From the NCBI GenBank assembly GCA_016748015.1, contig JAAOMT010000642.1, positions 14,128 through 38,120 on the forward strand: a DNA stretch of 23,993 bases, written 5' to 3'. Numbering within the stretch: position 1 is the stretch's first letter; each line of letters begins with the position of its first letter. A program made the translations under genes and the position numbers. A model generated the notes under the pieces. That model had not been told where the DNA came from. It saw only the letters and a list, made by a program, of their open reading frames with translations, and made no database searches. Source of the DNA: Geosiphon pyriformis. Taxonomy: Eukaryota; Glomeromycota; Glomeromycetes; Archaeosporales; Geosiphonaceae. Below are positions 1 to 23,200 of this stretch, piece by piece.

Positions 1-756
1 AAAGCCTGTAAATGTATATTTATTCACAGATTTTGTTAAATAATTTTTCTTTTCAAAATCTTTGAATTTTTCCCAAAATTGAGCTGAGCAACGTTCCCAA
101 TAAATATAAAATATTTTAGAGACAACTCCGTCTTCTACATATGGATATGGAATAGCATCCCATCTTGCGTGTGACGGCTCAACTGTAATAAAATTAAAAT
201 CTTGTTCCACAGTACCGAAAGAAATTGTCTTTTCAGAAAACATTACTGCTTTAGTGATGTTTCAAAAGTTTAGAGCCATGGAATTTCATTGAATATAGCT
301 TTTTATTTTTAGATTTCAAAAAAGAACTCCACCCTCCCCAAATATAAGAATAAATTTTTGCTGACCCCAAACTCGGTAATCACCAGTACCTCTTAGATAG
401 GAGTTTTTATAGCTTGGGAAGATTTGTTGACAAGACGCTCTCCATGAAAAAGTTGCACTCGATGACAATTGAGCCAAAACTTTTGCATCTTCAACAATTT
501 CTTTTACAAAGGTTATATCTTTATCGTCTCCAATTCCAACCACTTTATTATCAAGACCTCTGGCTGAAATAGAAAATCGCTGATTTGAGGTTTGAGTGTT
601 TCTGAGAGAAACATTTTCTTTTAGTGAATTTAAATGAATTTCATTGTGAGTTCTTATTCGTTCACTCTCAGCTATAAAATTAAATTCATTCGTAGATTGG
701 AAATGAAAAAGAGAAATTAGAGTAAAGGACAAAAAGATTGAAATTTTATGAATCAT
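1..756 (-). CDS. Secreted lipase-like protein (class 3 lipase fold), 3' part outside window
   Basis: Two exons are visible on the minus strand: 756 down to 333, and 248 down to the window edge. The intron between them (332-249) starts GTGGAG and ends AAAG or CAG, in phase 1. The start at 756 gives a hydrophobic signal peptide (MIHKISIFLSFTLISLF). Exon 2 reads through an aromatic-rich stretch (RWDAIPYPYVEDG, FYIYWERCSAQFW) and ends at the window edge in YTFTGF, where class 3 lipases carry the strand leading into the TGHSLGG nucleophile elbow. The same order and the same phase-1 first intron occur in the divergent gene at 1181. The catalytic Ser, Asp and His would lie outside the window, so activity cannot be judged. 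The weak 5' splice site is a reason for caution. Lipase-like identity is good; substrate is unknown. Confidence 0.72.
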
Positions 757-1180
757 ATTTGGCCATTTATATATTTTGCAATAAAAGAATTATGATTTTT
801 TTTAAAAAATAAATAAATAACAAAGTTCAAAGTAAAAAGCTAGATTTTGAAACAATATTAATCGGTTTTTGTGTGTGTTTCTTAATTAATGGTTGAACCA
901 AACTTTTTCCTCATATGATTGTACATTTACTTATATTCTTTGATGATCACGGAAAAAATAATTTGAAAATTGAAAAACTAAGTATAAAATGGGACAAAAC
1001 TTTTTGCAATTCAAAATACTAGAATATTTGTTTAATAATCGACAAATAAAAGCCTAGAAATCCAGGGATATTTGAAACAAATAAATGCATAAGCATTAAA
1101 CATATTCTATCTATAACTGGAATAAATTTCAAAACTGAAATGAGATTTCACAAAGGATCTTTTCAAAAAAAAGAAACATT
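757..1180. promoter_or_regulatory. Shared divergent promoter region of the two lipase-like genes
   Basis: These 424 bp separate the two start codons and hold no gene. A TATA-like TATAAAA lies at 983-989 on the plus strand, about 190 bp upstream of the ATG at 1181. On the minus strand TATATAAA lies close to the ATG at 756, probably too close to be the TATA box. Head-to-head placement suggests a bidirectional promoter or an inverted tandem duplication. No specific transcription-factor site is recognised. Confidence 0.35.
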
Positions 1181-2778
1181 ATGTCTAAAGAATTCATAAA
1201 GTACTTTAAATCAATTTTTTTTTTACAAATTATGGCTATAATTTTTTTCATTCTTTGGAATTTTTTTTTGTCACAATCAAAATCAATAAAATTGGAAAAA
1301 GTCCATTGCTTCTTGATACGAAATTATGAAGAATTCGAGTGTATTCATCATCCTCAGCAGATGCTACCAGTCAAAAAGTTTTCAATAAATAATCTCAAAG
1401 TTTCCCAAAAAAAAGATATAAATGATAAATCCGAAATCACGATCATGAAATCAAGAAATTTTACGGGTCCTCGTTATGTGAAAACCTTAGTTAATGATAA
1501 AGAGCTTCTAAAACTATTTGCTGACAAGGCAAATTTGGCCTGGATATCGCACTGCTATCAACAGAGTTATGGTAACCAATGAAACTTTGTCTTATTGGGG
1601 AATTTAAATTTTGCGACTTCTAATCATTTTTTATTAAAATACTGTAGTAGATCGTCAAGCCTCGGTTTCCTTTTTGACACATGATGAATCAAAAATCACG
1701 TTTAGTTTTGCACACCTCAATCACAATTCTTTAGCAGCGTTGGGACGACATGTACAAGATTTATCTACAATGGTTCAATTCCCAGACGTAACTGGTGCCT
1801 GGGTCGGGAAAAACTACTACATTAAGTGGAAAAAATACTTTGAAACTAACTTTTTCAATGGACTTCAAGTGTATTTGAAAAGTTCGTCGATACAATACAA
1901 TTTTACAAACTTTGACTTTACTGGATTCGGTCAAAGCGGCCGTAAGTTTATTATCAATCAAAAAAAATTATGAAATTAAAAAATATATTTTAAATTTAAG
2001 GTACTCTTTTTATAAAAAGCATATGTAGTCTTTGCTGCTCTCGAGTTCTTGAAAAAATATCAACCAAAAAAGAGGCCCATTGTTGTTACTTTTGGCCAGC
2101 CAAGAATGGGAAATGAAATTTTCGCTGCTTTTGTTCAAGCCAATCTTGAGGTAATTAATAAATAAATGAGTGTTTACAATAAGTAATTTGAGCATAATAC
2201 AAAATTTTTTTTACTAAATTTCTCGTTTGAAATTTATAAAAAAGATTTATCGTGTAACACTTGCAGATGATTTATTACCAAATATACCAATAAAAGGAGT
2301 AAAAGATTATTTGAAATGGAATGATGAAATTGAGAAACCAGAAAAATCACTGCCTATAGCATATGAACAATATAGACACTTTAAACCAGAATTTTGGATT
2401 GATGCTAAAGCACATGATATATCTGAGGAAAAATTAAACTGTGAATGTGAGCAAAATTTGGACCCACTTGTTTACAAGTGTTTTAACACACATTCATTCA
2501 ACGAAAATCCGGTATGAATTTTTACATTTGCCAATAAAGAGATAAATTTTTCTTACAATACTAACTTTTTTGAAACTTTCTAGGCGTGTAATGTTCGTAT
2601 ACATGAGATTTACTTTTCGAGGGAAATCAAGAGTACTGATAAAGATGAAAATTTTACTTATGGTCCATATTTTGGAAAAGACATGAGGAATTGTGAGAAC
2701 TTTAACAAAGATATGATTAAAAAAATAATCTCACAAAACAAGTTAAGGGGAGGACACATTAATAAACCTAATGTATAA
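1181..2778 (+). CDS. Lipase-like protein, complete five-exon gene, probable pseudoenzyme
   Basis: Exons 1181-1571, 1648-1941, 2020-2150, 2245-2511 and 2584-2778 join in frame to 425 codons. The last intron carries a textbook ACTAAC branch site, then CTAG. The N-terminus has a long hydrophobic segment (IFFLQIMAIIFFILWNFFL), a signal or membrane anchor. Class 3 lipase landmarks follow in order: the elbow TGFGQSGPYVVFAAL (family TGHSLGG), the strand VVTFGQPRMGNEIFAAFV, the Asp region YRVTLADDLLPNIP, YRHFKPEFWI, and a C-terminal GPYFGKDMRNC like the LSYFGINTGLC end of Rhizomucor lipase. At the elbow the nucleophile position is Gly. The usual catalytic His before YFG appears to be Tyr. The FRGT oxyanion segment is not recognisable (FAHL). 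Asp is kept. The intact reading frame argues for a maintained non-catalytic or altered-function protein, but recent gene death is possible. The acceptors at 1647/1650 and 2019 are the least certain. Confidence 0.8.
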
Positions 2779-3654
2779 TAGTAAATTCATTATGTCTATA
2801 ATTTTCTACTTTTAAATTATTTTTCCTATATAGAACACTTTTTGAAAATAATTAAATAATTTTCAACAAAATATTATTTTATTTTATTCGTTTATTAATT
2901 TAATAAGCATTTTGCATAAAGTATGGAAAATAATATAACATTATTTTTTTATTTACAATATTTTATATAAAAATAAATAATAATAAGAAATTTTTATAAA
3001 TTTAAAATTTTTTTTATTTAATTTTATTATATACGTAATAGCTTTATTAATAATAATAATAAAAATTCTTTTTAATAAAATAAAAATAAAAATAAAAATT
3101 TTATAATAATAAATAACAAATTAAATAAATTAAACTTTATTTTAAAATAAGAATTAAATATTATTTCTTGTATGATTATGATTTTATCAAACAAAATTGC
3201 AAAGTGCTATTTTTATCTTTATTTATTTTTATCTTACAATTTCAGTAATTATACATTTTGAATTTTTTGATATTTAAATTTTATTATATTAACTACAATT
3301 TTTGGATATGTAAACTTTGTTTTGAATAATAATATCAATTCTTAATTTTTTAGTCTTGGTAATCAAATATTTTTAAATGTAATAATAATCTGTTTCATAT
3401 ACTTAACCATTTTAATTTTGCAATAATAGAAGAGCTTGCCATCAGACATTAACTTGTGAAAAACAAATCACTTATTATTATTATGTCTTGAAATGAAAAG
3501 CTATAAAACATGTTTATTATTATTTAGATAATAATAGGTTTATAAAAATATGTAATAAGCATTAATAGATTATTTCAGATATTTCATAGTTTTGGTATAT
3601 AAAAAAAAAAGAAATAGCGGGGAAGATGTGGTAAACAAAAATAACATTTATACG
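2779..3654. other. AT-rich intergenic spacer, no gene seen
   Basis: This is the 3' flank of the lipase-like gene. It is almost pure A/T with runs such as AATAATAATAAT near 3050. No reading frame, RNA gene or repeat partner is recognised. Polyadenylation of the upstream gene probably falls in the first 200 bp, but no single clear signal stands out. Confidence 0.6.
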
Positions 3655-6537: not shown

Positions 6538-6893
6538 AAGTAGTTTAACCAAAAAATTCAATAATCCAATTACTTAAGAAGGCTGGACTCCAAAAACGAT
6601 TTTGAGACAAAAATTAGTGTCAGCTATATATGTGTATGCCAACTTCAAAAAAGTAAAGTAGAGATTTAATCGAATTTGGGTCTATGTTATGTATAGATTG
6701 TATGTTGTAATAGATAGTTATTTGATTTTTATTTCACTATAATAATGTTATTTAAGATTTGTTCAAGAAATATTATTAAATTATTAAGATTAATTTTAAT
6801 TACTAAAATAAAATATATTGAATTTGTGTAATATTTTAAATTATTCAATTATTCAATATTTAATATAAGTAATTTCCCAATAATTTTTAATTA
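6478..6893 (+). repeat. Inverted repeat A, left arm (partner 23584-23993)
   Basis: This arm matches the reverse complement of 23584-23993 over its whole length. Shared blocks include AGAGACAATAAA, CCAATTACTT/CCAATCACTT, GGCTGGACTCCAAAAACGAT, TATATGTGTATGCCAAC and a long AT-rich 3' segment with AAAATATATTGAATTTGTG. It carries the end of a protein frame plus about 350 bp of 3' flank. The left arm has T or A where the right arm keeps C or G, so the left arm is the more mutated copy. Confidence 0.85.
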
Positions 6894-6975
6894 TAAATAT
6901 AGATAAAGAAAATATTTGATTTGTTAAGACTAATTATTATTGCTTTATTTTAATTTTCAGTTTTGTAAAAAAAAA

Positions 6976-7395
6976 AATTTTGTGTTTAAAAATTCTAAAT
7001 GAGCCAAATTAATTATTAAAAACATATTTATTAAATTATTTTTATTGCTTAAATACATATGCTCTATGTTAAATACAACTTATGTTTTTTCTATGCATAA
7101 TTAGTTATTTGAGTCAATTAAAATTATACTACTTTATATTTAACTATCTAATATTATAAAAATTTCTGGTTAATAAAACAGTTATATTTAATACCAACAT
7201 TAATAATTTCTAAGATTTATACTTAAAAATTGTTTTAATTTAAAATTACATTTTGATATGTTCAAAAAAATTTTATCTAAATACTTTTCAAATTTAATTA
7301 ATACAGTATATTTATTAGCAATAAAACTAGTTAATTTATATTTGACTTAGTTATTATAAAAAACTTTTAAATATTTTAACTAAATTTACAAAGTT
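6976..7395 (+). repeat. Inverted repeat B, left arm (partner 10394-10790)
   Basis: This arm matches the reverse complement of 10394-10790. It begins TGTGTTTAAAAATTCTAAAT and ends ACTAAATTTAC. Shared blocks include AAATACAACTTATG, AATTAAAATTATACTACTTT, ATAAAACAGTTATATTTAAT and ACAGTATATTTATTAGCAAT. The left arm holds a short internal duplication (about 20 bp, AAATACATATGCTCTATGTT) that the right arm lacks. No protein is encoded. Confidence 0.85.
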
Positions 7396-9898
7396 ACAAA
7401 TTTTAGCTAAGGTTTTAAATTAATTTTAAGAACTAATTTTTTTAGCCAAAGTAAAGTACATATTTAATAACATATCTAATTTTTTTATTAAATTAAAATG
7501 AAATAACAGGTTTAAAGTTTTTTCTAATAAAAATTCTTAATAAGTGTTTGCAATTTTATTAAATTTTATAAAATATTAGTATATACAAACAATTTTTAAA
7601 ATTTTTTTTTGTTATTATATTTTTTACACTATTCTTGAATATTAGTTATTAACAATATAAAAAATGATAAAAGAATATTAATTTCAATTGTACAAAACTT
7701 TAAATTAGTAATTTTATTGATACTTAACTAATACAGCCATTTGATTCAGTTTATTTCATTAACATTAGTTTCTTATAGAGCTTTAAAATTTTAGATTTTA
7801 GCAATTAGCAGAATGTTAATCAATAATAATTTTCAATCACTATTATTTCTTTTTAAATAATCGGGTTTTTTTTGTTAGTTTTAATTGGTTAACATGATTT
7901 TTAACATAAATAGCAGACTGTTCAATAATACATGCAATTTTTGTGGTGGATATATCTATATTTAATGTAAATTATCTGTTTTTACCAAGATTTTTTTGGT
8001 AGCACATGTATATATACATTTCGAAATTTAAGTTACTCTTTAATTAAATAATAAATTAAACAAAGACAAATGTCATTGTTATTAGAAATAAGCATTCAGA
8101 TGTAATTTTAAGTTCGTTAGAATTATTGCAATATTTAAAGTTTTTTACAATTTTCTAAAAATTGTATTATTTTTGTGTGTGAAAAATTCATGTACCAGAT
8201 ATCAATAAAAAACTTTAAAAATATTTTGGCTTTTGCAAGATTGAAAACATAAAATCTTTTACAATAACAATTTTCAGTATAAATAATATGGCTAAATGTT
8301 TTAATATCTGTACTTTGTCTCTAAATTTTATTCATAGATGAGGTTAAAAAACCTTTTTTTTGATTTTGAAAATTATTATTTTATTAAAAGTTATAAGCTC
8401 TCCAAGAGTTTATATTTAGTATTTACATCTCTGCTAGTTTATTTATAAATTTTTTTGCTACTTTTAGAATTTATCAAAATTTTGAGTTATTCTAAAAGAA
8501 AAATGTTGAAACAAATTAATGACAAAAGTTCTTTGTTTAAAAAACAAAAAAAAAGCAAGATGTCAGTAAATATTTTAAATTATTTCAAAATAGAAATAGA
8601 AATAGAAATAGAAATAAATACACAAATTTTTATTAGATCATTTATATAAAATAGTTTTCATAAACTAAATGGAAGACATATTTTATAAAACAAACAAATA
8701 TAGTTGAATTTTGGAATAAAATTTAAATTTATCATGAAGCAACCATCAATTAAAAATTTTACACTCATGGATTTTATCAAGCCTATCCCAAATTTGCTGT
8801 GGTTGAACACAATAATACAAATTCCGAAAATCGAGTCATCCTGCTTAATAGATCAAAGATTTTTTGATTCGAGACTAAAACTCTTGGCTCAAGTGGTTTG
8901 GTACCTGGCCATAGAAAAATTTTTGACAACCTGAACGATCAAATCTTTTTGATATAGAATAGACTTTGTATCGAATAAAGGGAAAGATTTGAAGCAAACT
9001 ATTTAAATGCAGAGGTTAATATAATCTTTTAAAGTAAACTTGCCATAAGTTAATATTAAAATATATATTTTTCTTTATGTGCCAAGGTTCAAAGCAGAGT
9101 TTCAGCGCCAATTTTAACAGAGTCAATTTCGAATTTTTTAATTTAGAGATTTTATATCGAGATACAGTAAGAAAAAATAAATCGGAATTTATCAAATTAT
9201 TTCATTTATGGTCTATTTTTCGTAATTGCTATTCTAGGATATCAAAGATACCATCCCATACATATCTTATCAAATTATTCCGAGAGAAAGAATAACTTAC
9301 TGGGTTTTTGAGAATTCTCAAATGTCAAGATAATAAATTATCAGCCATTCAGAGCTTATGATTAATTAGATTTCATTGATGTTTCTTTGCTGACTTTCAG
9401 GATACCTAATATTGTTAGACTAAGTTAAAAAAGAAATCTCAACTAGAGGTATTTTTCAAATCGAATCTTTTTAAAACCTTTGAATTCTTATTAAAATCAC
9501 AATATCAAAAATCCAATTTCAGAATTCTTGAATTCACCAAAAAAAACTTGATGGTAAACAATAATTTTCATTCACAAGGATCTGAATCTGAATTTTCTAG
9601 TTGAGTTAGCTGCTTTATAATTGAAAATCTGGCTTCGATATTTAAAATAGAATTATATGACACTGTGCAACACAAGAACTTGAGTTTCGTAAGATAATAT
9701 TTAGTATTTGGGGGTAAAGATTCGTAAATAAGAGCATTTTCACCATCAGTAAACAAAATTATGAACAAAAGTTTTTGGAAAGCATATTTTTATACCATTA
9801 TGAATTGTAAAACATTATATTAAAAAAGTTCAAATAATCTACTACATATGAATAAAATTTTTTTTAAATTAGTAGTAGTGAATTTCGTTGAAAAACTT
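7396..9898. other. Interior of inverted pair B, no recognisable gene
   Basis: About 2.5 kb of AT-rich sequence between the arms. Short frames occur on the plus strand at 8704-8934 and 9077-9295 and on the minus strand at 9768-9568 (SLPPNTKYYLTKLKFLCC and SIIKQLTQLENSDSD). The stretch 8730-9770 has more G and C, including a few CpG, than its surroundings, so it may hold a broken gene. No frame shows a known motif or a convincing exon chain, and no transposase was recognised. Confidence 0.4.
8588..8616. repeat. GAAATA hexamer microsatellite
   Basis: About four perfect copies of the six-base unit AGAAAT, directly visible in the sequence. It is a simple repeat with no evident function. Confidence 0.9.
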
Positions 9899-10009
9899 TA
9901 TAAAAACTTGGGTTGAAATTATCCTTTTGAATATGTGAAGTTGCTCAACAAATTTTGTGAAATAAAATAACTTTTAATCTGAAATTTTACACAATTGAAT
10001 TTTGATAAG
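9899..10009 (+). promoter_or_regulatory. TATA-like element upstream of the 10010 exon
   Basis: TATAAAAA at 9899-9906 lies about 104 bp upstream of the ATG at 10010, a plausible core-promoter spacing with a short 5' leader. AT-rich surroundings make chance occurrence likely, so this only supports the exon call weakly. Confidence 0.25.
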
Positions 10010-10177
10010 ATGAGAGACATTCCTTTCTGGACTCTGATAATATTAGCAGCAGCCTATTTTTCTCAAATAGCAATTTCAGGACCAATACCGAGAGGACTTG
10101 ATGTTGACCATCATATAAAAAAGTATTTAGGTGAGGGTCATATCCCTCTTAAGACTTTGACCTATTATTCAAGCTAA
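10010..10177 (+). CDS. Signal-peptide first exon of a small secreted protein or truncated gene
   Basis: The ATG at 10010 opens a clean secretory leader: MRDIPFWTLIILAAAYFSQI, with a likely cleavage near AISG, then PIPRGLDVDHHIKKYLG. A GTGAGG donor at 10131 suggests exon 1 is 10010-10130, ending in phase 1. If unspliced, the frame runs to TAA at 10175-10177 and gives 55 residues. No downstream exon is visible, because inverted arm B begins at 10394 and LINE sequence follows. The exon keeps several C-containing codons and a CpG, so it is less decayed than its surroundings. It could be a small secreted protein, the orphan first exon of a longer gene cut by the repeat, or a captured gene piece. 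The family is not recognised. Confidence 0.45.
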   Translation: MRDIPFWTLIILAAAYFSQIAISGPIPRGLDVDHHIKKYLGEGHIPLKTLTYYSS

Positions 10178-10393
10178 TTAAAAATCTAAATAACTAAGTT
10201 GTAAATTTAAGAGCTTTACTTTTAATATATTTTAGTATCTTGTGTGAACAATTACCATTTTATTAGAAGATGAAGATTTTTATTGTCATTTATAATTTAT
10301 AATTTATAACTTATAATTTTTAATCGGATTTTTGAATAAAATCGTGTATTTCATGAGATTATACGATAATTCATATGCCGCAGAACATCTAAT

Positions 10394-10790
10394 TAGATTG
10401 GTAAATTTAGTTAAAATATTTAAAAGTTTTTATAATAATTAAGTCAAATATAAAATAACTAGTCTTATTGTTAATAAATATACTGTATTAATTAAATTAA
10501 GATAGAAATTTTTTGAATATAATATCAAAATGTAATGTTAAATTAAAACAATTATTAAGTATAAATTTTAAAAATTTATTAAAGTTAGTATTAAATATAA
10601 CTGTTTTATTAAGCAAATATTTTTATAATATTAGATGGTTAAATATAAAGTAGTATAATTTTAATTGACTTAAGTAACTAATTATACATAGAAAAAACAT
10701 AAGTTGTATTTAAGAAATAAAAAAAAATTTAATAAATATGTTTTTTAATAATTAATTTGGTTTATTTAGATTCTTTAAACACAAACACTA
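10394..10790 (-). repeat. Inverted repeat B, right arm (partner 6976-7395)
   Basis: Read on the minus strand it starts GTTTGTGTTTAAAGAATCTA and ends AACTAAATTTAC, mirroring the left arm with scattered transitions and small indels. With the left arm it encloses about 3 kb. I could not identify a target-site duplication just outside the arms. Confidence 0.85.
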
Positions 10791-11687
10791 GAAACTTTTT
10801 TCTTCTGCTTATTTCAAATACCTTAAAGAGTTATTTCTAAAAAAAAAGTTTTAAATCAAAAAAAAACTTGTATTATCAATTAACATTCAGTTATATATAC
10901 AAGAACCAAATATATTATAGTGTATTTTGAATCAAAAAAAACATAATGTTAGCTTTGACTGTATTTTCAGTTTTTAAAAACTTTATATTAAATAAACTAA
11001 GTTAGATTTATTTTTGTTTTATGTATAAGAAATTTGATTATGTTTTTTTTTTGTGTATATTTAATATATTATTAGTTTTTAAGACTAAATCTAGTTTTTA
11101 TTTTCTAGAATTTAATAAATATAGACTTACAGTTAACTATGCCAAAAAAGCTGTCTCAATTGCTTGTTTAATTTTTTTAACAGACTATTATAAATTTCAA
11201 ATTATTGGTTATAATGTTTTTGGTTTTTTTTTGCTTTTTTATTTTGTAGTGCTGTTTTTTCTAACACAATAATTTGTTTTTTTTATTTGTTTTTTTTTAA
11301 ATACTTACTTAAATGTTTTTAAATATTTTTTAAAACTTTTGGCTAAGCAATTTTCTGTAATTTGTGCTAAATTAAATTCAATATTTTAACTTCTTTTTTA
11401 GCTCTTCAATCTTTGCAGTTGTTAATAATTATTTTAATAGAAATTTCTTTTAATAATAATATAAATGTTTTAAGTTTACTTTTTTTTTTTCTGTTAATGT
11501 AATTTGTAATTTTTTATATTTAAATTTGAATAATAATAAAGTTTTTATTACCAAAATTAATGATTTAAAAACCAAAATAACAGTATTAAAGAGTTTTATT
11601 AATGTTGTTTTAATTTATTTAAATTTTTTTGTTTTTGGTATTAATCTTGTTTTTTTTAGTTTCTTAATAACCAGTTTTATTTAAAAA

Positions 11688-14600
11688 ATTACTACATATA
11701 ATATTTAAAAAATAAACAATTTTGTTAAGTAACTAAATATTATTTATTAATACAAAAAAATAAACAATTTAATTTTAATACTTTTAAAAACAAAGTTGTA
11801 TAATAAAATTAAATCATAGATTATAAATAAATTTAATAAGATTAGAGTTTTTACTTTAGATATAGATTTTAAATATTTGGGTCTTAATATTATAGTTATT
11901 ATAAATAGTAATTTGGTTAAACATATTTGCAAAGTTTTAAAAATGATTGGTCAGCTTTTGTTAATATAACTATTGTTTAAAAGTTGTTTTTTGGTTATAA
12001 TTTTTGGTTTGTATACTTATATTATTTTGAAAAAAAGTTGATTTAAGCTTATAGCATTAATTTAATACTAGTTATAACTATAAACAATAATATATTTGTA
12101 ATTCTTAGTAGTAATTTTTATAAATATTAAGAAGAAATTTGGTGGTTTGTTTTTAATAAATACAAAATTATTAATAATTTCAATAGAAAATAGATATTGT
12201 TTATTTAAATAATACATTCTGTAACTAATATTACATTCTTAAAAATATAATATTAAAGTAAAAAAATGATTAAAAATTTTATATCTTTTAGATTTTTAAG
12301 ATTTTAAAAAATTTTAAGTCTGATAACTTAGAAAAATTTCAGATTTTGTTGAGCAAATAAATTAAACTAAATTTAAGTTGAACTGTAAAATTTAAAGATT
12401 TATTTAATATTAGTTTTAGTAAATTGAATATAAAATAAATATTAGTTCAATTTAAGAGAATTTACAGATTTTATAAGATATTAAAAGCCAAATTTGCTGA
12501 TAATAATTACATTAAAATTTCTATTACAAAACACATAAAAGCTTTTATTAACAATAAAAAACAAATAATTAAAAATATACTAAAAAAATCTTGTAGAAAA
12601 TTGTAATAAATAATTTAATTAATAATAATAAGTTGATTTTGAAGCTTAATTTTGTTAAAAATAAAATAGATTTAATTATAAAAAACTTAATCAGAAAATA
12701 TATTGATAAGAATATTGTTTTTTTTCTTAATTGTAATAGTTTGTTTTACTTAATTATATTAACAATAATATATTTTTTAATATTATAAAAAAAATTGCTT
12801 TAGATAAATTTTTATTGGTTATTAATAAATTTTTTAATAGTAAAGCTATAAATTTGTCTAAGATATCTAATAAAATATAAAAGTATTGTAAAAGTTTTAT
12901 GTTAAATCTGCTTTTAAGTTTGTTTAATAAATGTTTAGTAAAAAATAGTTTTTAATGTTTAAAAAAAATCTGAATCTTAATAATTCCTAAGTCTTATAAA
13001 TAGAAAAGCATTTTAATAAACACTAAACTTTTTGTTTTAATAGAAGTTATAAGAAAAATACTTTCAAAATTTTATTTAATAATATTTTAAGAATTTACAA
13101 TAAATTTAATATCTTAAAAGAAAACAATTTTTTAGTTTTAAAAATTATATTTATTTAATTTTTTATTTTTATTGTTAAATTAGTAATTAAGAATGTTTTA
13201 AATTTAGTTGGTGCTTCAAAATATGTACAAATTATATAATTATATAAATTAAATATATTAAAAAACAGTTTAATAAGAATAAAAATATATAAAAAATTTA
13301 TTAAATTTTTTGGTTATATATATAATAGATTTTATTTTGTCTATTAAATACAAAATTTATGATGGCTTAAATTAAAATAAAATGTTTTTTTTTTTTGTAA
13401 ATAATTTTTTACAACTTTTTTTTGTACAAAATAAAAAAATATAAATTTTTTTTAAATATTAAATTAATTCTAAGTTTATAAATTACAAAAATTAAATCTA
13501 ATATAAATTTAATCTTGTTTATAGCTATTTGTATATTTGTTAATAACATGATTTAAATTAACAATAATTATGCAATAATACAAAATATTTTAAATATTAT
13601 TAATAAGTTTTTTGAGATTAATAATATAGTAATCAAGACCAAAATTAAAAATATTTTATTAATTATAAATAGTTTTCTTATTTTAGTTGCTAAATTTGAT
13701 AAAACTTATCAATATTTAAGTATTTATTTGTTAACTAATGATTTTTTTGGCCTTAATTTGAAAAAAACAAATTTAGATATAAAGTTTTTTTTAATAGTTT
13801 TGTAAAAAACCATTTTTAATAAACAGGTTTTATATTTGGTTTTAACTATTTTAAAGCTTATTATTGGTTATAAAACTCAGTTCAGTTTTGTTAACAAAAG
13901 TATTTATAAGAGATAAAATTATTTAATTAAAAAAAATTTAAAGTTAAAAACTAATTTGTTCCAAAATTTACTAAATAAAATTATATATTATTATTTTTTT
14001 ATAATTTAAAGTTTTTTAATTAGATTTAAACAAAAAAAAGATGGTTTTAATTATAAATTTTGTTAATGCCAATAAAAATTTTGACAAATTTTTCAAATAT
14101 AAATTGTTTAATTTGTAAGTTTTAAGTTAGATCTTTTAAAATTCATTTTAGTTTTTAGTTAAATTGAAAATCAATCTTTTTAACAACTTTTTGGCTAATA
14201 TTACCAGAATTTTTTTGATCAATAAAGTTTTTTTGGTAGTTTACACACTTAGTACATTTTATTTTAAATATAATATTCTTGTTTTAGAAATTTTAAATTA
14301 TTTTAAATATTTTAGAATAGTTAAATCTCTTAAATATTCCAGTATAATTTTTGTTAATCAATTTCTAAACAGTTATAAGAAATATTTTACTTAAAAAGAT
14401 TTTTGTTATTAGAATAGTTGAATTTCAAAAACTTTGTTTTTTTTTGGTTTTTATTAATTTTAAAGTTTATTATTATTAGTTATCTGACCAAAAATTATTC
14501 ACTATTTTTTTAATTATTATTTAAAATAAAAGTATTATATACAAAAAATTTTAATACTGTTTATTTTGGTTTAAAAAATATTTGTTTGCCTAAATCACAA

Positions 14601-15064
14601 TTTTTACAGATAGCTTAATTAAAATCTTAGTTTGTTTAATATGGTTAATAGTATGTTAATTTATTTTTTTAAAATATAAATATAAATATAAAAATTCAAG
14701 ATTTATTTTTTTGAACTTTAATTATATTGTAAGTTATAATTTTAGCTCTTAAATGTGTTTTAATATTTATTAAAATTATAATTTACTTAGACAACCAAAC
14801 TATTTTAAATGTTTATTAGATAAAATTGAATTTTATTGTGCTTAATTTTTGCAATAGTTGCTAAGTAAAATATTATTATATAATTAATATATTTAATAAT
14901 AAAAATATTTTATTAAAATAATTAAAAATAAAGATATTTAGGTGTTTTTAATAATAAATATACTAAAAAACTAGCAAAAATTAGATTACTTTTTCTGATT
15001 TAATATTATTAATTAATATAAAAAAAAATTTTTGGTTACAAATAACAAAATTGTATTTAATAAT
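11688..15064 (+). pseudogene. LINE copy 1 ORF2: endonuclease, reverse transcriptase, RNase H remnant
   Basis: Alignment to copy 2 fixes the landmarks. The start ATG is now ATT at 11688 (ITTYNI-stop-KINN against MTTYNIKGINN). The endonuclease stretch INNLILILLKTKLYNKI at about 11764 has the catalytic Glu changed to Lys at 11787-11789. The linker NNKLILKLNFVKNKIDLII lies near 12625. The reverse-transcriptase thumb-side block EVIRKILSKF lies near 13045. The catalytic box reads FVNN at 13536-13547 instead of FxDD, followed by a stop where Trp is expected. The KTQFSFVNKSIY block lies near 13880, and the RNase H stretch YLDNQTILN near 14785 keeps its Asp. The frame is full of TAA and TAG. Nearly every diagnostic change is C to T or G to A. 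The protein is certainly inactive. Confidence 0.8.
15053..15064. repeat. Candidate target-site duplication, copy 1 side of LINE copy 2 3' end
   Basis: GTATTTAATAAT sits immediately before the 3' end of copy 2. ATATTTATTAAT at 22450-22461 lies where copy 1 resumes. The two agree at 10 of 12 positions, and one difference is a transition. In this AT-rich context similarity by chance is possible. Confidence 0.45.
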
Positions 15065-15219
15065 ATATATTACTTTATTAAATTTGGTTTTTTTTTTTAT
15101 ATTTAACAAGTGAGTCCCAAATGTTAACTAGTACAATATATCAAATTAAATAATTTAAACTAGATATAAATCATCCATTTTTTATATGTAACCAGTTACT
15201 CAAGCCAATTAAAGCAATA

Positions 15220-18200
15220 CTATAAATTTATTTTAACAATTACTGTACTATTAGTACCAGAAAAAAAATTGCTAGGCTTATAGAATTCAAAACTGATATC
15301 ATGTACTTTTATAATTTTAAGCAATTTGATAACATTATTAGAAAATAAAGACAACAGACCACAAATCTCAGGAAACACTAAACTATCATGTATAATTAGG
15401 CTTTTTTTTTCCATAATTACTTTGTATTTAGTTTTTACTAATTATACTTTTGTATGATAGATCATCTCCAAACTCTGCATTAAATAAATTACTTTATTAT
15501 TAGCAATTTTGACATTATCAAAAATAGAAACAGTTTCTGAGCATTATTTCTTAAACACAAAATTTTTATATAAAGCAATATATATGGCACTATTAGAAAC
15601 ACACAAAAAAAGCATTTGCAAAATTCAAAACAATAGCAAGCTTAAATCTGACATAACACTTCACTAAATTGAGCATGACTTAAGCAGACTTTTATAAGCA
15701 TCAGAGTCTATTAAACACAAAAAGAAATGATTAAAAGTTTCCATTTTCTTACAATAAAGACGTGACACATTAGAATATTCTTTATTATACAGACATTTTT
15801 GAATAGCAACTGGTAAGTAATGATACAAAGCTTTTATAAAATATGAATACAAATTAGCAATAGACTTACTCATAAAACCAGTCACTAAATACAAGTCAGA
15901 ATGCCAAACTGAAGACATCTGAGTCTAATTTACATTTCCATTTAAATCTTTGTTAATAATACCAGATTTAGACCCAACTTTTTAATGTGCTTGCTAAACT
16001 ATTCTAAAGACATTACAAGTTAAATAACAAATATTTTCAGAGACTATTACCCTATTAGTTTTAATGTATTTTTCTTTAACAGGAACATAAAACAGTAAAT
16101 TAGAGCAAGAAACCAAGTTAGCCAGCACATTAGTCTGTTTATTACCCAAAACACCCAAATGGTTTTTAATTTTAACTTATAAAACATTGAGCTTTTTATA
16201 TCTAATAAAATTTGTAATATTACATCTTTTGAGCCAACAACAATTATGAAATCTGGTATGACCATATTCAATTCTGTAGTATAAGCATCCAAAGCAGCCT
16301 GGCTATTTGAGTAAATTATAACAGAGCTGAAAACTAGAACACAATCCAGAGCCAAAGCTACTACTTACAATTCAGCCATTGTGAAAAAAATTAAGCCATC
16401 AAATTCAACTCCAATACTAAGATTCAGATTAGCAAAAAATATGACATTACACTTTATTTCACATGTATCCAAATTCTTCAAACACTTATTTGTGTAAACA
16501 TTAATAATATCTAAACTAGTATCAAAAAAACTTTGCTGTATTGCAGAGATGTTATTAAAACTGAAAATGTTTGAAAACTCTAAAACATTACTAAAAAAAT
16601 GAGCAACAAGACAGAAAAAAGCATTGGCCAAATAATTACAAGCTAGCCTAAACCAAACAGGGACTGGGCTCTTGGGATTAAGTTATTTTCACTGACAAAA
16701 CCTCTTTTAATCAAAAATTGCTCTTTTTTTATCATACAATTGTTTAACAAAAGCAACACCAAACCTCTTAAGCAATCTAAAAACATTATAGAATACTGAA
16801 TTTTCCAAAACAAAAGACATAGAAATACCACTTGAAAATTGGAAAGCAGAAAAAAAACTATTGTTAAAAAACATATCATAGTTTAAAAAAATTTTAATCA
16901 CACCAGCCAGGAAGTTGTTAACCAGACTAATCCTTAACCTGACCAAAATTTGCAAAGAATACACAAAAAACCAACTTAAAACTTGCAAATCCAAAGACCT
17001 ATAAGTAAAAAAATGACCAAGAATACTATTAGCATTCAAAAAACACAATATGAAAGCAGTCTTATTTTTAGCCTACATTTGCTCAAAAGACTGTAGGTTA
17101 TACAAAAATAGATAATAAAGAGCCTTATTGGGAAAATTTTAAGGCAAATCTGTCTTTATTTTTAAATCTTTTCTAATAACTGTATCTTATTTACTGTATA
17201 TACTCTTAGAAATAAAACTAAATTGAGTTTTGTATCTAATAATAAAGTGTAGCACTGCTAAAACCAAATAAAAAAACTGCTTATTTAAAATAGCTTTTTT
17301 TAAGACCACATTAGCAAAAACCCTGACATCCAAGTGTATCTTTACTAAGCTAGGCTTAAACAAACTCTTAAAAAACAAAAAAATACCAAAATACCTATAA
17401 AATTTACCGTTTTGTGCAACCAATATTGGCAGATCACTTATTGATAATAAGACATCCTTAACTCTTTGGTTAATGAGAATGGCTATTGTTTTTTTATTAT
17501 TGATTGAAATGTCATTAATTCTAAAAAAATTACTTGTAATGTCTAAAATATATTAAGTAATAGCATAATTATTCCTCACCCAAATTGTGTCATCAATAAA
17601 AGCCCCAGCAGCCAAATGTAAAGTCAATCTGCTCTGGGTTTTTATTTTTCCAGTTTTAATGACAAATTTAATATTAATATAGTAACCACATAAGTTTTTA
17701 TGTTTCTTGACTTTACACAAAAAAGGGTCATAAAAGATCCTTTAAAGCAAAGATAAGAAAACTTTGCTCTGGTCTAGACTATCATGTACATAGTATCTAT
17801 TAGTAAGTTCATAATCTGTCATGATTCAGTTTACCTTATTATTGTAAATACTACTGAAAAAACTAACAAAGTGTTTACACATCTTAATCTGAACCAAACT
17901 ATTCTTTAGATAATGCCAATTAACAGAGTCATATGCTTTTCACATATTCTACAAAACTAGCCAAAGTTTATGACTTTTTTCCAAAGCATTTTCAATTATC
18001 AAGCCCATTACAAAAATAAAAGATTGAGTAGTAGTGCCCTTTAATACAGAGAAATTATTCCTACATAAAATGTCAAATCTGCTGTATACTAACAAAATTC
18101 TATCAAAAAGCAACTTGGAAAAATTTTTCCAAGTAGTTTCAATTAAAACAATTAGTTTAGTATTAGTTAAGATTTTTTCTCACTCATAAAGCTTAAAAAT

Positions 18201-19792
18201 TATTAATATCTAAGCTTTTTTCTAAGAACAAGACATCAATTTATGCACCAAACAAGAATTCAAGAGATTCAAAAGCATTACAAGAACAGAATTATCACAA
18301 TATTTTCAAAGTTTATTGGTAATATCAGACAAACCAGTAGCTTTTTCATTAGGCAAATTCTTAATTACCCATAACAGATTATTAAAAGTAACAGTATTTA
18401 TAATTCTAGAGAAAACAGTATTGTTAACATAAGCCAATGGTAAATATTAATAGCTCTATTAGTCAGAAACTCCACTTGTTACCAATTTTTTTCTCATCCA
18501 GTCTTCTATTATCTTATTAATTTTAAATTTAACAATATTAAGATCTAGAACTAACTTATTATTTACCACCAAATGATTTAAAACTACTTTTCAAAAAAGA
18601 TATTCCAGCATACTTCTAATTATGTAATCCTTATTGACTGCAAAACTCTCTATTTTTTTAATAATAGCTAATTTAATTTCTGATTTTTTGGCTTGCAAAA
18701 ACTAGCAAACAAAGTCTTATTAATGATTAAAGATGCTTATCAAGTTATTAAAGACTTAAATACACTATTAATACCTTTATATAAAGACTTGATAATTTTT
18801 TACACCAAAATTTCTAACTTATGAAACTTAAAGAACTTTTTGATAAAAACACTATCAAAGTTCTTGAATCATATTTTTCTGAAAACTTTATCTGCTGAAA
18901 AACACACTACTTTGCAAACAGTATTCTACATAGTATTCAGATCTGAAAATTTTTTGAACATAACAAACTCACCAGAAAACATAGCTGTATTAGCTGCTGT
19001 AGTCTCCTTAAACTTGCACCACTTTGCCTCATTAGCATTTTTAAAGTTGAATTTTCAATAATCTTTAATTGCTTGTTTGCAAAAAGAGTTCAACTGCATA
19101 TTTAATAATCCATCCGAATTCATAAACACAGAAACAGCTTGGTAATCAGTATCAAAGTGTTTACTAACATTCAGAATATTGTAATATACTATTATATTAA
19201 CCAAGTTTAAAGAGATAAATACATAATCAATTGTTTTTTTGGCACCTCTTAAATTCTTTTAAATAAAACTATTTGCTACTGAACTCCTTAACAAAAAATT
19301 AACCAACTTTAAATCAAAACACTTCTTGAAACTAGTGCATCTATGGAAACCATCCTTATTGAAATTTCCATCCAAGATAACAAAAAAAGATTCATTTACA
19401 GCTTTTGCAATTAATAAGTTAATGTTTTTAGCCTAAGCTAAACAAATTATTAGCACTGTATCAACATACAATTCTAAAATCAAAACAGAAAGTTTATTTT
19501 TAAAGAGCAATCTAACCAACAGAAGCTGGCCAAAATTCTTAAAAATCTTGTATACATGTCTTGCCAAAGAAATATTCATAATAATCATAATTCCAAAACC
19601 CAGATAACCAGAATCCAAATTAGAAGTGAATACATAAAGACCATCAAACTTGTCAGCAATCTATAGATAGACTTTTCCCTTTAGCTTTGTCTCAATAACT
19701 ATTGAAATCAAATTGTTTATATTTTTGTGCCAACAAATAATGTTAACTTGCTTAGCAGGATTGTTGATACCCTTAATATTATATGTAGTCAT
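15220..19792 (-). pseudogene. LINE copy 2 ORF2 polyprotein, about 1,520 codons, inactivated
   Basis: It starts MTTYNIKGINNPAKQ at 19792. The AP-endonuclease part includes SIVIETKLKGK (catalytic Glu kept), DSGYLGFGIMIIMN, GNFNKDG, and DTDYQAV where the family has DTDHQAV; the active-site His is Tyr at 19144-19142. The reverse transcriptase keeps AAGAFIDDTIWV, with FIDD at 17600-17589. RLLKRFGVAFVKQL and SNNFLAG-like blocks (LVNNFLAGVIKIFL) follow. The RNase H part has VYTNKCLKNL for the usual YTDGS and IYSNSQAALDA for the usual TDSQ, so two catalytic Asp are Asn. The C-terminus has SVWHSDLYLVTGF, IKALYHYLPVAI, a Cys-containing LYCKKMETFNH and MEKKSLII. Several TAA/TAG stops and at least two frame changes break it. 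Losses are mostly transitions. Confidence 0.82.
17589..17600 (-). other. Reverse-transcriptase catalytic box FIDD (LINE copy 2)
   Basis: The minus strand reads TTTATTGATGAC, then ACAATTTGGGT, giving FIDDTIWV. This is the motif C metal-binding Asp pair of reverse transcriptases, intact here although the rest of the protein is broken. The same site in copy 1 (13536-13547) reads FVNN. Confidence 0.85.
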
Positions 19793-19809
19793 CTTCCAAA
19801 TAAGATTAG

Positions 19810-21655
19810 TTATTGAAAGAAACAAGTATTAGAGCCCAAACCAGCATTGTTCACTCTGGCCAATAGGCTCATAATTGTGTTTGACAAATTGCTTAAAGTT
19901 TCTTTTAATTTTAAAACAACTGAAGGATTAAAACTTACCATTCTTATAATAGTCTCAACACTAATAATCACACTTGAGCTCTCACTTATTACTATATTCA
20001 CCCTCTAATTTTGTAATAAAAAAGTCATCAATAGCTGACACCCAGAACTAAACTGGAAAACCATTGGTTCAAGTGCATCCAACTTCTTAGCCAGCTTAAC
20101 TACTTGCTTTACAAGACTGTTAAAACTGCATTTAAGAGTGGCTAACTTATTATTTAATTCTATAGTTATCAGTAAAATAAATTTTATTACCAAAAAGGAA
20201 CCAGAACCAACCAAATTATTTTATGCAGGAAGAAAAGAAAAAGAAAACTCATTAACAATCTTAGTCCAAGAGATACTACTAAAAGAAACAGGATAGATAA
20301 TCAGCACTAAATGTTTAGCATAAATAAATGCCAGTCTGCTTTTATTTTTTTCTAACAACATTTTATGAAATAAACTACCAAAAAAAGTTTTTCTACTTAT
20401 AGAGCAGTCTAATGAAATATAACCCAATTTTTCACACTTAGCATATTTTGCTGAACTTAAATAAAACCAGTACAGATTGGCACTTTTTAAAACCAGCATA
20501 GTTTTTATAATAGTATTTAATAATTCAATTGATTTAAAACAAACAACCACACATTTTGTTTGAGCATAAGTAACTAGATGTTAATCAATAACACATGTTT
20601 TCTTATTCACAGACCCAATAAAATTTTAGATGTTATAAGCATTTGTTTTCATTAACAGTATATAGAGCAGTGCTTTATAATCATCTCAAAAATCCCATGT
20701 TTTTTGTCTCTATTAGTCTTAATTACACAAACTGCATCTTTTTTAATTAAGATAGACCACTTTGCCATGATTAAATTAGCATGATTTACTTTATTGAATT
20801 TAATCACAGCTTTTTGCCACAGCCCTACCAACTGCATTTTGATTGACTTAATTAATTCAAACTCAGAAAGCACAATATACATAGTCTTAGCTGATATTTC
20901 AATTGGAATTTTTTTTATTACTACAGCTCAATTTGATTACACAGCAGATTTTTTGAGATTGGCATTTACTGTGATCTTCACATTCTTTGTTATATCAGAC
21001 AGTTAAGTCAAGCTTGATTTAAAAGTAAATGTTGTTTTGACAATCTCAGTAAATTTTAAGAAGATAGAGACTTCTTCAAAACTATTGATTTTCAAAAATA
21101 ATTTTTTGACCACTACCAACTTCTCTTGAGAGAACTTTTTAATTATTTTATTCAAGCCAATATTCAAAGCAAATAATTTCCTAACCAGAATATTAACCAA
21201 AATTTTCAAAGAAAGAGAAAAATCCAGAAGAGTGTTTAATAAAATATTATCATTATTGTTATTACTCAAAAAATTAATTTTTCTCAGTAGCTTTTTCAGA
21301 ATTTTTTTGGTCTTAACATATAAATTCTTTAACATTTGGTTGGTATTTTTGTTATTAAAAGTGACTCCACTACTATAGTTAAAGTTAGTTTCCTTAATTA
21401 ATTACTTCTCTTCTATGTTAACACTATCAGACTTAATAGTATTGCCAGTTTTTGACCCCTAAAAATAACTATTCAATTCCTTAACAGAAGCTTTTTTAGT
21501 CTTGGCATTATTATTTAAAACACCATCTTTTTTTTTTGACAGTACAGATTTAAAACTATTTACTAAACCAGTATTTTTAATAGTCTTTTTTATAATAGTA
21601 ATACTAAAGCCAACAGTAGTTTTATAATCAAGCAAAAACGATTTTAATTTATCAT
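19810..21655 (-). pseudogene. LINE copy 2 ORF1, nucleic-acid-binding protein, inactivated
   Basis: Its start lies near 21655, where ATG is followed by a frame shift: ATGATAAATTAAAATC looks like ATGGATAAATTAAAATC with one G missing. Blocks in order are DKLKSFLLDYKTTVGF, FSQEKLVVVKKLFLKINSFE, EFELIKSIKMQLVGLWQKAV (RRM-like region), CFKSIELLNTII, and a degenerate zinc knuckle YAKCEKLGYISLDC at 20445-20404. The knuckle should be CxxCxxxxHxxxxC; the first Cys and the His are both Tyr. KLAKKLDALEPMVFQ in the coiled-coil-like C-terminal part comes next. The end at 19810 is 17 bp upstream of the ORF2 start, the usual tight ORF1-ORF2 spacing. The function inferred from the family is RNA binding in the retrotransposition particle. 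It is dead by stops and the lost ligands. Confidence 0.75.
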
Positions 21656-22449
21656 ACTAAATGATAAAAAAACTTTTTTCAAAAAACTTTTGAACTTTTT
21701 ATTGGGAATTTGGAACAAAGAAAAGAAAGAAGTTTTTTTTTTTTATTTGGTTTTAATATTGTAAACTTTTACATATTAATAATATTAATTAATATTTTGC
21801 TATTTTGGTTTAGTATTTTAACTTATATATAGTTATTAAATATATTAGTAATATTATTATTGGTTTATATATATATATAATAAAAAATTTACATAAAAAG
21901 TTAACTATTATAATTAAAAAAAAACTTTATAATAAGTGCTATTAATCTTATTTATAAAATAAACCATAAAAAAAAATATAGTATAAATAATTAATAATAA
22001 AATATAAAATTATTAGAGTATATAATATCAAAAATTCCAGAAATTTTAAAAATATTAGCAAAAATACCAAAAATTTCAGAAATATTAAGAATTTTAGCAA
22101 TAATTCAAAAAAATTATAAGAATTTTAGAAATTTGATATTATAAAAATTTATGTATATATAGCAAAAATATTAGAAACAAAAAAAACAAACAAGTTTAAT
22201 TAAAAACAAGTTGAATTTTATTTTATAAAATAACTTCTATAATTAATAATTTAACACTTAAAATCTACAATTATTTTAAATAAAATTATTAATTATATTA
22301 TTTAAATACAACTTTATGTATTTCAATTTATTTTATTGAATCTTAATTACTTTTACATTAATATTAATAATATTAAAACAATAATTTTTAATTATAATTA
22401 TTAATAAAATATTAATTTTTATTATATTTTTTTCTTTTTTGTTTTGTTT
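21656..22449 (-). other. 5' untranslated region of LINE copy 2
   Basis: No coding sequence is seen in these 794 bp. They are inferred to be the leader of copy 2 because copy 1 coding sequence resumes only at about 22450. The region is almost all A/T, with TATATATATATA at about 21870 and a degenerate tandem repeat at about 22028-22140. An alternative is that part of it is unrelated AT-rich filler. Confidence 0.45.
22028..22140. repeat. Degenerate tandem repeat of about 30-39 bp
   Basis: Successive units share the pattern CAAAAATxCC, AGAAATTTT, AAATATTAG: CAAAAATTCCAGAAATTTT, then CAAAAATACCAAAAATTTC, then a shorter CAATAATTC unit. Units differ in length by several bases. It may be a LINE leader repeat or simple low-complexity expansion. 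Confidence 0.5.
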
Positions 22450-22461
22450 ATATTTATTAAT
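22450..22461. repeat. Candidate target-site duplication, far side of LINE copy 2
   Basis: ATATTTATTAAT is the partner of GTATTTAATAAT at 15053-15064 and marks the proposed 5' end of copy 2. It is also in the same reading frame as the continuing copy 1 codons. Confidence 0.4.
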
Positions 22462-23200
22462 TGATTAAAAAAAACACTAAAATTATAATATTAAAAATTG
22501 TTTATAAAAAATGTTAAGATAAAATATAGAATATAATTAAAAAAACTAAAATTGCTTATTAAAAGAGTAAAAAATACCAAAATAAACTAGTTATTATGTT
22601 AAAAAAATTAGATGTTAAGTGTTGTCTACTATTATATTAAATCTTTGTTCATTATATAAAAAACTTTATTATTAAAATCTTTAGATTAACTAATTAATAA
22701 ATACAAATACAAAGTATATATTGTAACAATATAAAAATTTTTATTTATAGTTTTATATATAGCTTGAATTTTTGTATTTATAAAAAATTATTGTAAGTTT
22801 TGGAAGTTTTTAACTAATGTAAACTTGTTATTTTTTGCTGTGTTTTAATCTTTGTATTTAAGTACCAATAATATTAACTTATATTTGGCTCTAAATAAAG
22901 GTTTTGTGTTTAAGTTTTGGCTGGCTAAAGCTAAAGCTGTTTTTGTAAATATAAATTGGCCATTTCCTATTTAGTTGATTTTGTGTATAGTTTGGTCATA
23001 AGTTACAGAAATAAGATTTTTCTATCCAACTCAAAACTCCGAATGGAATTGGAGAAATGTGGTTTGTTGTATAATGTGAAATCAGTGCTAATTGTCATTT
23101 GATTGCCTTTTGAAAGAGGTGGGTCATTTATTGGAAGTGGTAGTTCCAGGATTGGATATTTGTTTTTTACTAGTGCTAGCATGTAAATCTAGTTGTATAG
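22450..23200 (+). pseudogene. C-terminal part of LINE ORF2, probable continuation of copy 1
   Basis: Plus-strand blocks match the end of the LINE ORF2. VVYYYIKSLF at about 22622 corresponds to the YFIKALY block of copy 2. YCKFWKFLTN lies near 22790, STNNINLYLALNKGFVFKFW near 22862, and LVDFVYSLVISYRNKIF plus MELEKCGLLYNVKSVLIVI at about 22973-23100, followed by a stop and GYLFFTSASM near 23155. Orientation and position in the protein pick up almost exactly where copy 1 breaks at 15064. The last 200 bp contain more C and G and fewer stops than the rest of copy 1. Hence a separate 5'-truncated copy of a related subfamily is the alternative. Confidence 0.65.

Follow-up and report, generated by a model that had tools for sequence, protein, structure and literature searches.

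The window analyzed here, a stretch of 23,993 nucleotides from Geosiphon pyriformis (contig JAAOMT010000642.1), carries a gene for a class 3 lipase-like protein that appears to have lost catalytic residues, and it raises the question of what such a protein could do and whether the loss is a matter of this gene alone. An earlier note, made from the sequence of the window, had read the gene as an uninterrupted 425-codon class 3 lipase made up of five exons and had suggested a secreted or membrane-anchored pseudoenzyme. Below, the gene is referred to as a member of subfamily A, and a lipase-like gene lying next to it on the opposite strand, which was absent from the earlier finding, as its subfamily B partner (Table 1).

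The uninterrupted five-exon reading was confirmed. All four introns (76, 78, 94, and 72 bp) have GT–AG borders, and the site given before, 1938–2660, spans just the part from the nucleophile elbow to the C-terminal block of a gene that runs from 1181 to 2778. The same exons were recovered when a spliced aligner was applied to the window's first 6 kb; since the query was the gene's own protein, this agreement is a consistency check and not an independent prediction. Pfam matched the protein to Lipase_3 (PF01764) with a score of 44.1 bits (cut-off 22; E = 2.5e-11), and weak matches among PDB sequences were to class 3 lipases, feruloyl esterase A, and EDS1. The profile match supports a predicted α/β-hydrolase fold. 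The mean Kyte–Doolittle value over 19 residues is 2.45 for residues 12 to 30 and at most 0.96 elsewhere in the protein.

Table 1. Positions of the A gene, its partner B, and their diagnostic residues, counted from the first letter of the window.
Feature	Position	Strand	Basis or remark
B partner gene, lipase-like	1–756	−	Interrupted at the elbow by an N run
B exon 2, N run exactly at the elbow (YTFTGF)	1–245	−	Spliced alignment
B exon 1, Met codon at 756	366–756	−	Exon end by spliced alignment
424-bp stretch between the A and B start codons	757–1180	.	Presumed bidirectional promoter
Subfamily A gene	1181–2778	+	Five exons, 425 aa, no internal stop
A exon 1 (start codon, N-terminal hydrophobic segment)	1181–1571	+	Spliced model
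N-terminal hydrophobic segment, residues 12–30, IFFLQIMAIIFFILWNFFL, likely signal anchor	1214–1270	+	Kyte–Doolittle
A exon 2, ending just past the nucleophile elbow	1648–1941	+	Spliced model
KITFSFAHLNH where active class 3 lipases carry the FRG(S/T) oxyanion strand	1692–1724	+	Alignments
GGT codon for Gly225, which takes the place of the catalytic Ser	1929–1931	+	Ungapped alignments; Gly in 18/18 A loci
A exon 3 (helix following the elbow, GQPRMGNE strand)	2020–2150	+	Spliced model
A exon 4	2245–2511	+	Spliced model
Asp281 codon (RVTLADDLLPNIP), catalytic Asp position kept	2269–2271	+	Alignment to R. miehei lipase and feruloyl esterase A
A exon 5 including the stop codon	2584–2778	+	Spliced model
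ACT codon for Thr386, which takes the place of the catalytic His	2656–2658	+	HxGPYFG in Ser-bearing relatives

The elbow segment T-G-F-G225-Q-S-G aligns without gaps with TGHSLGG of Rhizomucor miehei lipase, so that Gly225 occupies the position of the nucleophile Ser, as had been read from these two motifs in the earlier note; the elbow of the A profile likewise aligns with TGHSLGA of feruloyl esterase A. Asp281 falls on the catalytic Asp of both enzymes, again as reported before, and is invariant in an alignment of six A sequences. The previous comparison of FTYGPYFG with LDHLSYFG was off by one in register, but the absence of His drawn from it stands: in the lipases of this genome that carry Ser, the block is HxGPYFG, which places Thr386 at the His position. 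FRG(S/T) is the oxyanion strand motif of active class 3 lipases, and a motif of this type is also present in relatives; at the sequence level, FSFAH stands in its place in the window A protein, in keeping with the description of this segment as unrecognizable. Hence, out of the features of a catalytic class 3 lipase, the protein has the Asp and lacks Ser in GxSxG, His, and FRG. Judged from these residues, ester hydrolysis by the usual Ser–His–Asp mechanism would be impossible for it.

To place the gene among its relatives, A loci were found by searching the genome (124.7 Mb in 406 contigs) with the protein and then modeled with a purpose-written spliced aligner, in whose models exons outside the Lipase_3 domain are less certain. 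Subfamily A comprises 18 loci including the window, every one of them with Gly in place of the nucleophile. Their elbows read GFGESS (eight loci), GFGQSG and GFGESN (three each), and GFGEST, GFGESG, GFGQSC, and GYGEGS (one each). Fourteen of the 18 models are free of stops and frameshifts; 13 of these, the window gene included, stay open as far as a stop codon, each with five exons, and the remaining one, L006, is broken off by Ns with its last exon unfinished. Among the four damaged models, L003 carries two stops, L004 five frameshifts and eight stops, L005 a frameshift and a stop, and L019 three frameshifts and two stops. Lipase_3 was the only Pfam match in each of six aligned members (E 0.01). 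All 15 rows have the catalytic Asp, and the catalytic His is missing in 12 of the 14 rows that could be scored, being replaced by Arg in eight, Thr in two, and Leu in two; L015 and L016 keep it, and one further row ends before the motif. Six Cys are common to the members with a complete C-terminus, which bears out the earlier remark that the Cys-containing ends are kept. A hydrophobic N-terminal part is present in all 15 members measured, with best 19-residue means of 1.36 to 3.92, the lowest and weak one in L014.

Two ways in which the window gene might still encode a working lipase bear on these alignments. A shift of the nucleophile by two positions, to the Ser of G-[EQ]-S (Ser227 in the window protein), would make A an active hydrolase; G-E-S does form the nucleophile elbow in other α/β hydrolases, and Ser occupies this position at 17 of the 18 A loci. 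However, L008 reads GYGEGS, so this Ser is not invariant, and it is often followed by Pro; the losses mostly extend to the His and the oxyanion segment, and no change in length favors a shifted turn. We hold such a shift to be very improbable. Alternative splicing that produces GxSxG, and with it a normal lipase, has in our estimate next to no chance of being the explanation: in the A models, exon 2 itself contains the Gly codon, and the exon boundary, with a GTAAGT donor just past the elbow, recurs in the paralogues. With Ser, His, and the oxyanion segment lost, and given the N-terminal hydrophobic segment and the Cys, a non-hydrolytic protein of the secretory pathway or a membrane is the best reading of the window gene.

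We then considered how far the loss of Ser extends among the lipase-like genes of this genome. In the Pfam search of the genome, 150 of 748 candidates were scored, and a census was made of 143 models, consisting of 80 further loci, chosen approximately by their Pfam rank, and all models from loci fetched earlier. The census includes loci picked as relatives of A, and some models have stops or frameshifts; because of this sampling, the proportions hold for the genes examined and not for the genome. The nucleophile position was readable in 138 of the 143 models, which had Gly (102), Ser (25), Asn (4), Ala (2), Asp (2), Arg (1), Glu (1), or Cys (1), meaning that Ser is missing in 113 of 138; the five models set aside are two unreadable rows and three without a value. 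Without the 18 A models and the 16 B models whose elbow could be read, Ser is missing in 79 of 104. As a side observation, L059 and L106, L068, L055, L022, and L063 have Asn, Asp, Arg, Cys, or Ala there, next to the Gly that is common elsewhere.

A tree of 124 of these models (Gly 93, Ser 22, other 9) was computed with the elbow masked; many of its inner branches were weak, 62 of 121 being open. In this tree, A forms one group (SH-aLRT 99) and B another (94), the two being sisters (83). One branch (SH-aLRT 98) contains 114 rows; of the 22 Ser rows, it takes in 12 and leaves out 10. The Ser label requires 12 changes on the tree, against a mean of 20.6 for shuffled labels (0 of 500 shuffles as low), a comparison from which the direction of change is not readable. 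Among the other 75 rows with Gly or another residue, His is present in 49 of 58 readable cases and the simple Asp pattern in 68 of 75. Because Gly is family-wide and most Ser-less relatives keep Asp and His, the alignments and the tree indicate that the loss of Ser is old and shared and that A has gone further than the others, mostly losing the His too. The nearest rows outside A and B are L082 (GFSVGG, with Ser) and L078 (GFGIGG, without Ser), in a group of 29 rows (SH-aLRT 84); these two may mark the state before the loss of Ser, or a return to it. A recent loss of Ser confined to the window gene is ruled out, since Gly is common to all A loci and the readable B partners.

Codon models indicated that subfamily A is constrained as a whole, with ω = 0.41 for 15 A sequences (MG+F3X4; stops of L003 treated as gaps). 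For 12 B sequences, the corresponding estimate was 0.35 to 0.36. Pairwise ω among A sequences was 0.32 to 0.61 at synonymous distances below 1.2, with the exception of one pair formed by the window copy and its twin on C52. Close pairs of other Gly-type lipase-like genes gave 0.31 to 0.77, and one very close pair gave 1.26.

This exception concerns the state of the window copy itself. A 3.3-kb block with the A–B pair, up to the N run, occurs twice: window positions 1–3277 are 94.5% identical to the C52 copy (L003, C52:14800–20500), in which both genes are disabled, the A gene by two nonsense codons and its B partner by two frameshifts. The second copy may be a duplicate, an allele, or a second nucleus. 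Between the two A genes, dN is 0.030 and dS is 0.034 (ω 0.90). Polarized by the other A sequences, the nonsynonymous and synonymous changes number 12:3 on the window branch and 17:3 on the C52 branch, with 2:1 unpolarized. The window-branch counts fit neutrality, and ω = 0.41 is not rejected by them (P 0.14); both branches jointly do reject it (31:7, i.e., 31 of 38 changes nonsynonymous, P 0.012). No recent constraint on the window copy was detectable in the 15 changes on its branch. A dN/dS near 1 together with a lack of expression had been named in the earlier note as a finding that would speak against its reading, and half of this is seen: the recent dN/dS of the window copy is about 1, although subfamily A taken as a whole is under constraint.

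One must weigh the idea that this copy has no function and has just begun to decay after duplication, with a frame that is open merely through youth, whatever holds for the other members of the subfamily. The disabled twin on C52, a relative on C298 with five frameshifts and eight stops, and the ratio of changes just given all favor it. Against it, the frame, splice sites, Cys, and motifs of the window copy are all intact, and the 15 changes are too few to argue against constraint. Such decay is a possibility to be taken seriously, but in our judgment it is still the less probable course. The single-gene interpretation gives way to a family-level one; the pseudoenzyme suggestion of the earlier note stands as the best reading, but it had treated as the oddity of a single gene a loss that is old and family-wide, and the window copy itself may be decaying.

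B elbows are of the type GFGxGA, and Gly was found in all 14 readable elbows (two of them from decayed copies) of the 17 B models at A loci, the unreadable ones being those of the window, L006, and the decayed L018. The B genes at L054 and L116 provide two further Gly elbows. The catalytic His is present in all 11 B rows of the tree with a readable motif; one row is unreadable. B lies head-to-head with A at 15 of the 18 A loci. The modeled 5′ ends are 118 to 776 bp apart at 13 of these, values that are approximate because local models may start late; the distance is 813 bp at L006, which has a truncated B model, and the start codons in the window are 424 bp apart. At L015, B genes stand in tandem with A on one strand, and no B gene was found beside A in the fetched stretch at L014 or at the decayed L004. 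B genes for which the match lists hold no adjoining A occur on C378, C203, C295, C317, and C168.

Distances between A proteins and between their B partners are correlated, with r = 0.64 over 14 of the 15 head-to-head loci (L006 being left out) and r = 0.90 over 10 loci when four with partial or badly decayed B models were left out as well; neither value was reached in 5000 permutations. With one locus per close cluster (eight loci), r was 0.51 (54 of 5000 permutations). The A–B pairs have thus been duplicated as units, with their linkage retained. Decay is one-sided at several loci, with A intact and B badly decayed at L012, L017, and L018 and the reverse at L019, which shows that the pair is not obligate; lesser damage to the pair is seen at L003, L005, L006, and L011. 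The linkage could stem from an inverted duplication, with no complex implied.

Taken together, we consider it reasonably probable that the A protein is a membrane-anchored or secreted lipase-fold protein without hydrolytic activity and that A and B are partners in binding or sensing lipids. According to this proposal, A would stem from a lipase-like lineage that by then had Gly instead of Ser and would then also have lost the oxyanion segment and, mostly, the catalytic His. The protein would have a class 3 lipase fold and be either anchored in a membrane in a type II-like manner or secreted. A and the divergent B, which has no Ser and has kept its His, would be carried as a unit, probably with one intergenic promoter for both. 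The two proteins, if made, would enter the secretory pathway and cooperate there or at the cell surface in non-catalytic lipid binding or sensing. The partnership is modeled on the EDS1-type lipase-like heterodimers of plant signaling, as a likeness of action and not of membership.

A wider version of this idea concerns the life of the organism. No match to the fungal fatty acid synthase domain PF08354 was found in the genome in a search that did find the control in Corynebacterium glutamicum and that intron-bearing genes may escape, and for want of this domain the organism may live on host lipids. Two papers report no fungal fatty acid synthase for arbuscular mycorrhizal fungi (PMC4771724, PMC12574304). 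A primer for the 18S rRNA of these fungi found no site in the genome with up to one mismatch allowed, a result that either weighs against such an origin or is due to rRNA missing from the data searched. That most class 3 lipases of this genome have become more than 100 non-hydrolytic proteins by the change of Ser to Gly, that the A–B pairs are heterodimeric lipid receptors or carriers, at the surface or secreted, and that a life on host lipids is possible, is an extension that we regard as unlikely as a whole.

The remainder of the window is of another kind. From about 15000 to 21500, the minus strand carries a long run of degenerate open fragments with a strong strand skew and the look of old retroelements, presumably resembling the retroelements of arbuscular mycorrhizal fungi. 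Pfam gave no match in nine fragments of the window, five of them from this region. A short open frame on the plus strand (9983–10177) with a secretion signal-like start, MRDIPFWTLIILAAAYFSQIAISGP, had no Pfam match either. The stretches 6750–8500, 10250–15000, and 21500–22700 are very A+T-rich, their G+C content being mostly 10 to 21%.

Genomes of Glomeromycotina have a mean of 189 lipases according to one comparative study (PMC12574304). Surveys of lipases that are based on homology may count genes without Ser as enzymes, and if the genome studied here is of the Glomeromycotina kind, as we suspect from the retroelement-like fragments and the missing match to PF08354, many of the lipases in such counts may not be digestive enzymes. 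Dead lipases that form a constrained and repeatedly duplicated pair are candidates for proteins that bind or sense lipids, perhaps where the organism meets a host. The series from Ser-bearing genes through Gly-bearing genes with His and Asp to A, mostly without His, is a natural experiment in giving up catalysis. No title or abstract describing a radiation of Ser-less lipases was found in the literature searched, in which few subscription papers are included. Within the literature covered, a radiation of non-hydrolytic lipase-fold proteins with A–B pairs is apparently undescribed.

Among known proteins, the PF01764 lipases, such as R. miehei lipase and Aspergillus feruloyl esterase A, share with A a homologous core that starts ahead of the elbow and extends to the Asp loop, including the GQPRxGN strand and the Asp, and the C-terminal GPYFG/SYFG block. 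A differs from them in having Gly for Ser and Thr for His, in the loss of the oxyanion segment, in the N-terminal hydrophobic segment, and in a Cys-rich C-terminal part. The GID1 and D14 hormone receptors and the insect yolk proteins are α/β-hydrolase folds that have turned to ligand binding or storage, with catalytic residues lost or reused; unlike A, they belong to other branches of the fold. EDS1, PAD4, and SAG101 have lipase-like domains and form mutually exclusive signaling heterodimers, and the Ser–Asp–His triad is retained in EDS1 and PAD4 (PMC9528080). A differs from the EDS1 family in its secretory-type Cys and its anchor, with no sign of a common functional origin, and Pfam gave no match to the EP domain in the target protein at E ≤ 10 or in six A members at E 0.01, the EP model being assumed to be in the library. 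A heterodimer of A and B is a possibility suggested by head-to-head gene linkage. EDS1 accounts for 4 of the 13 PDB sequences matched by the A profile (E ≤ 0.01).
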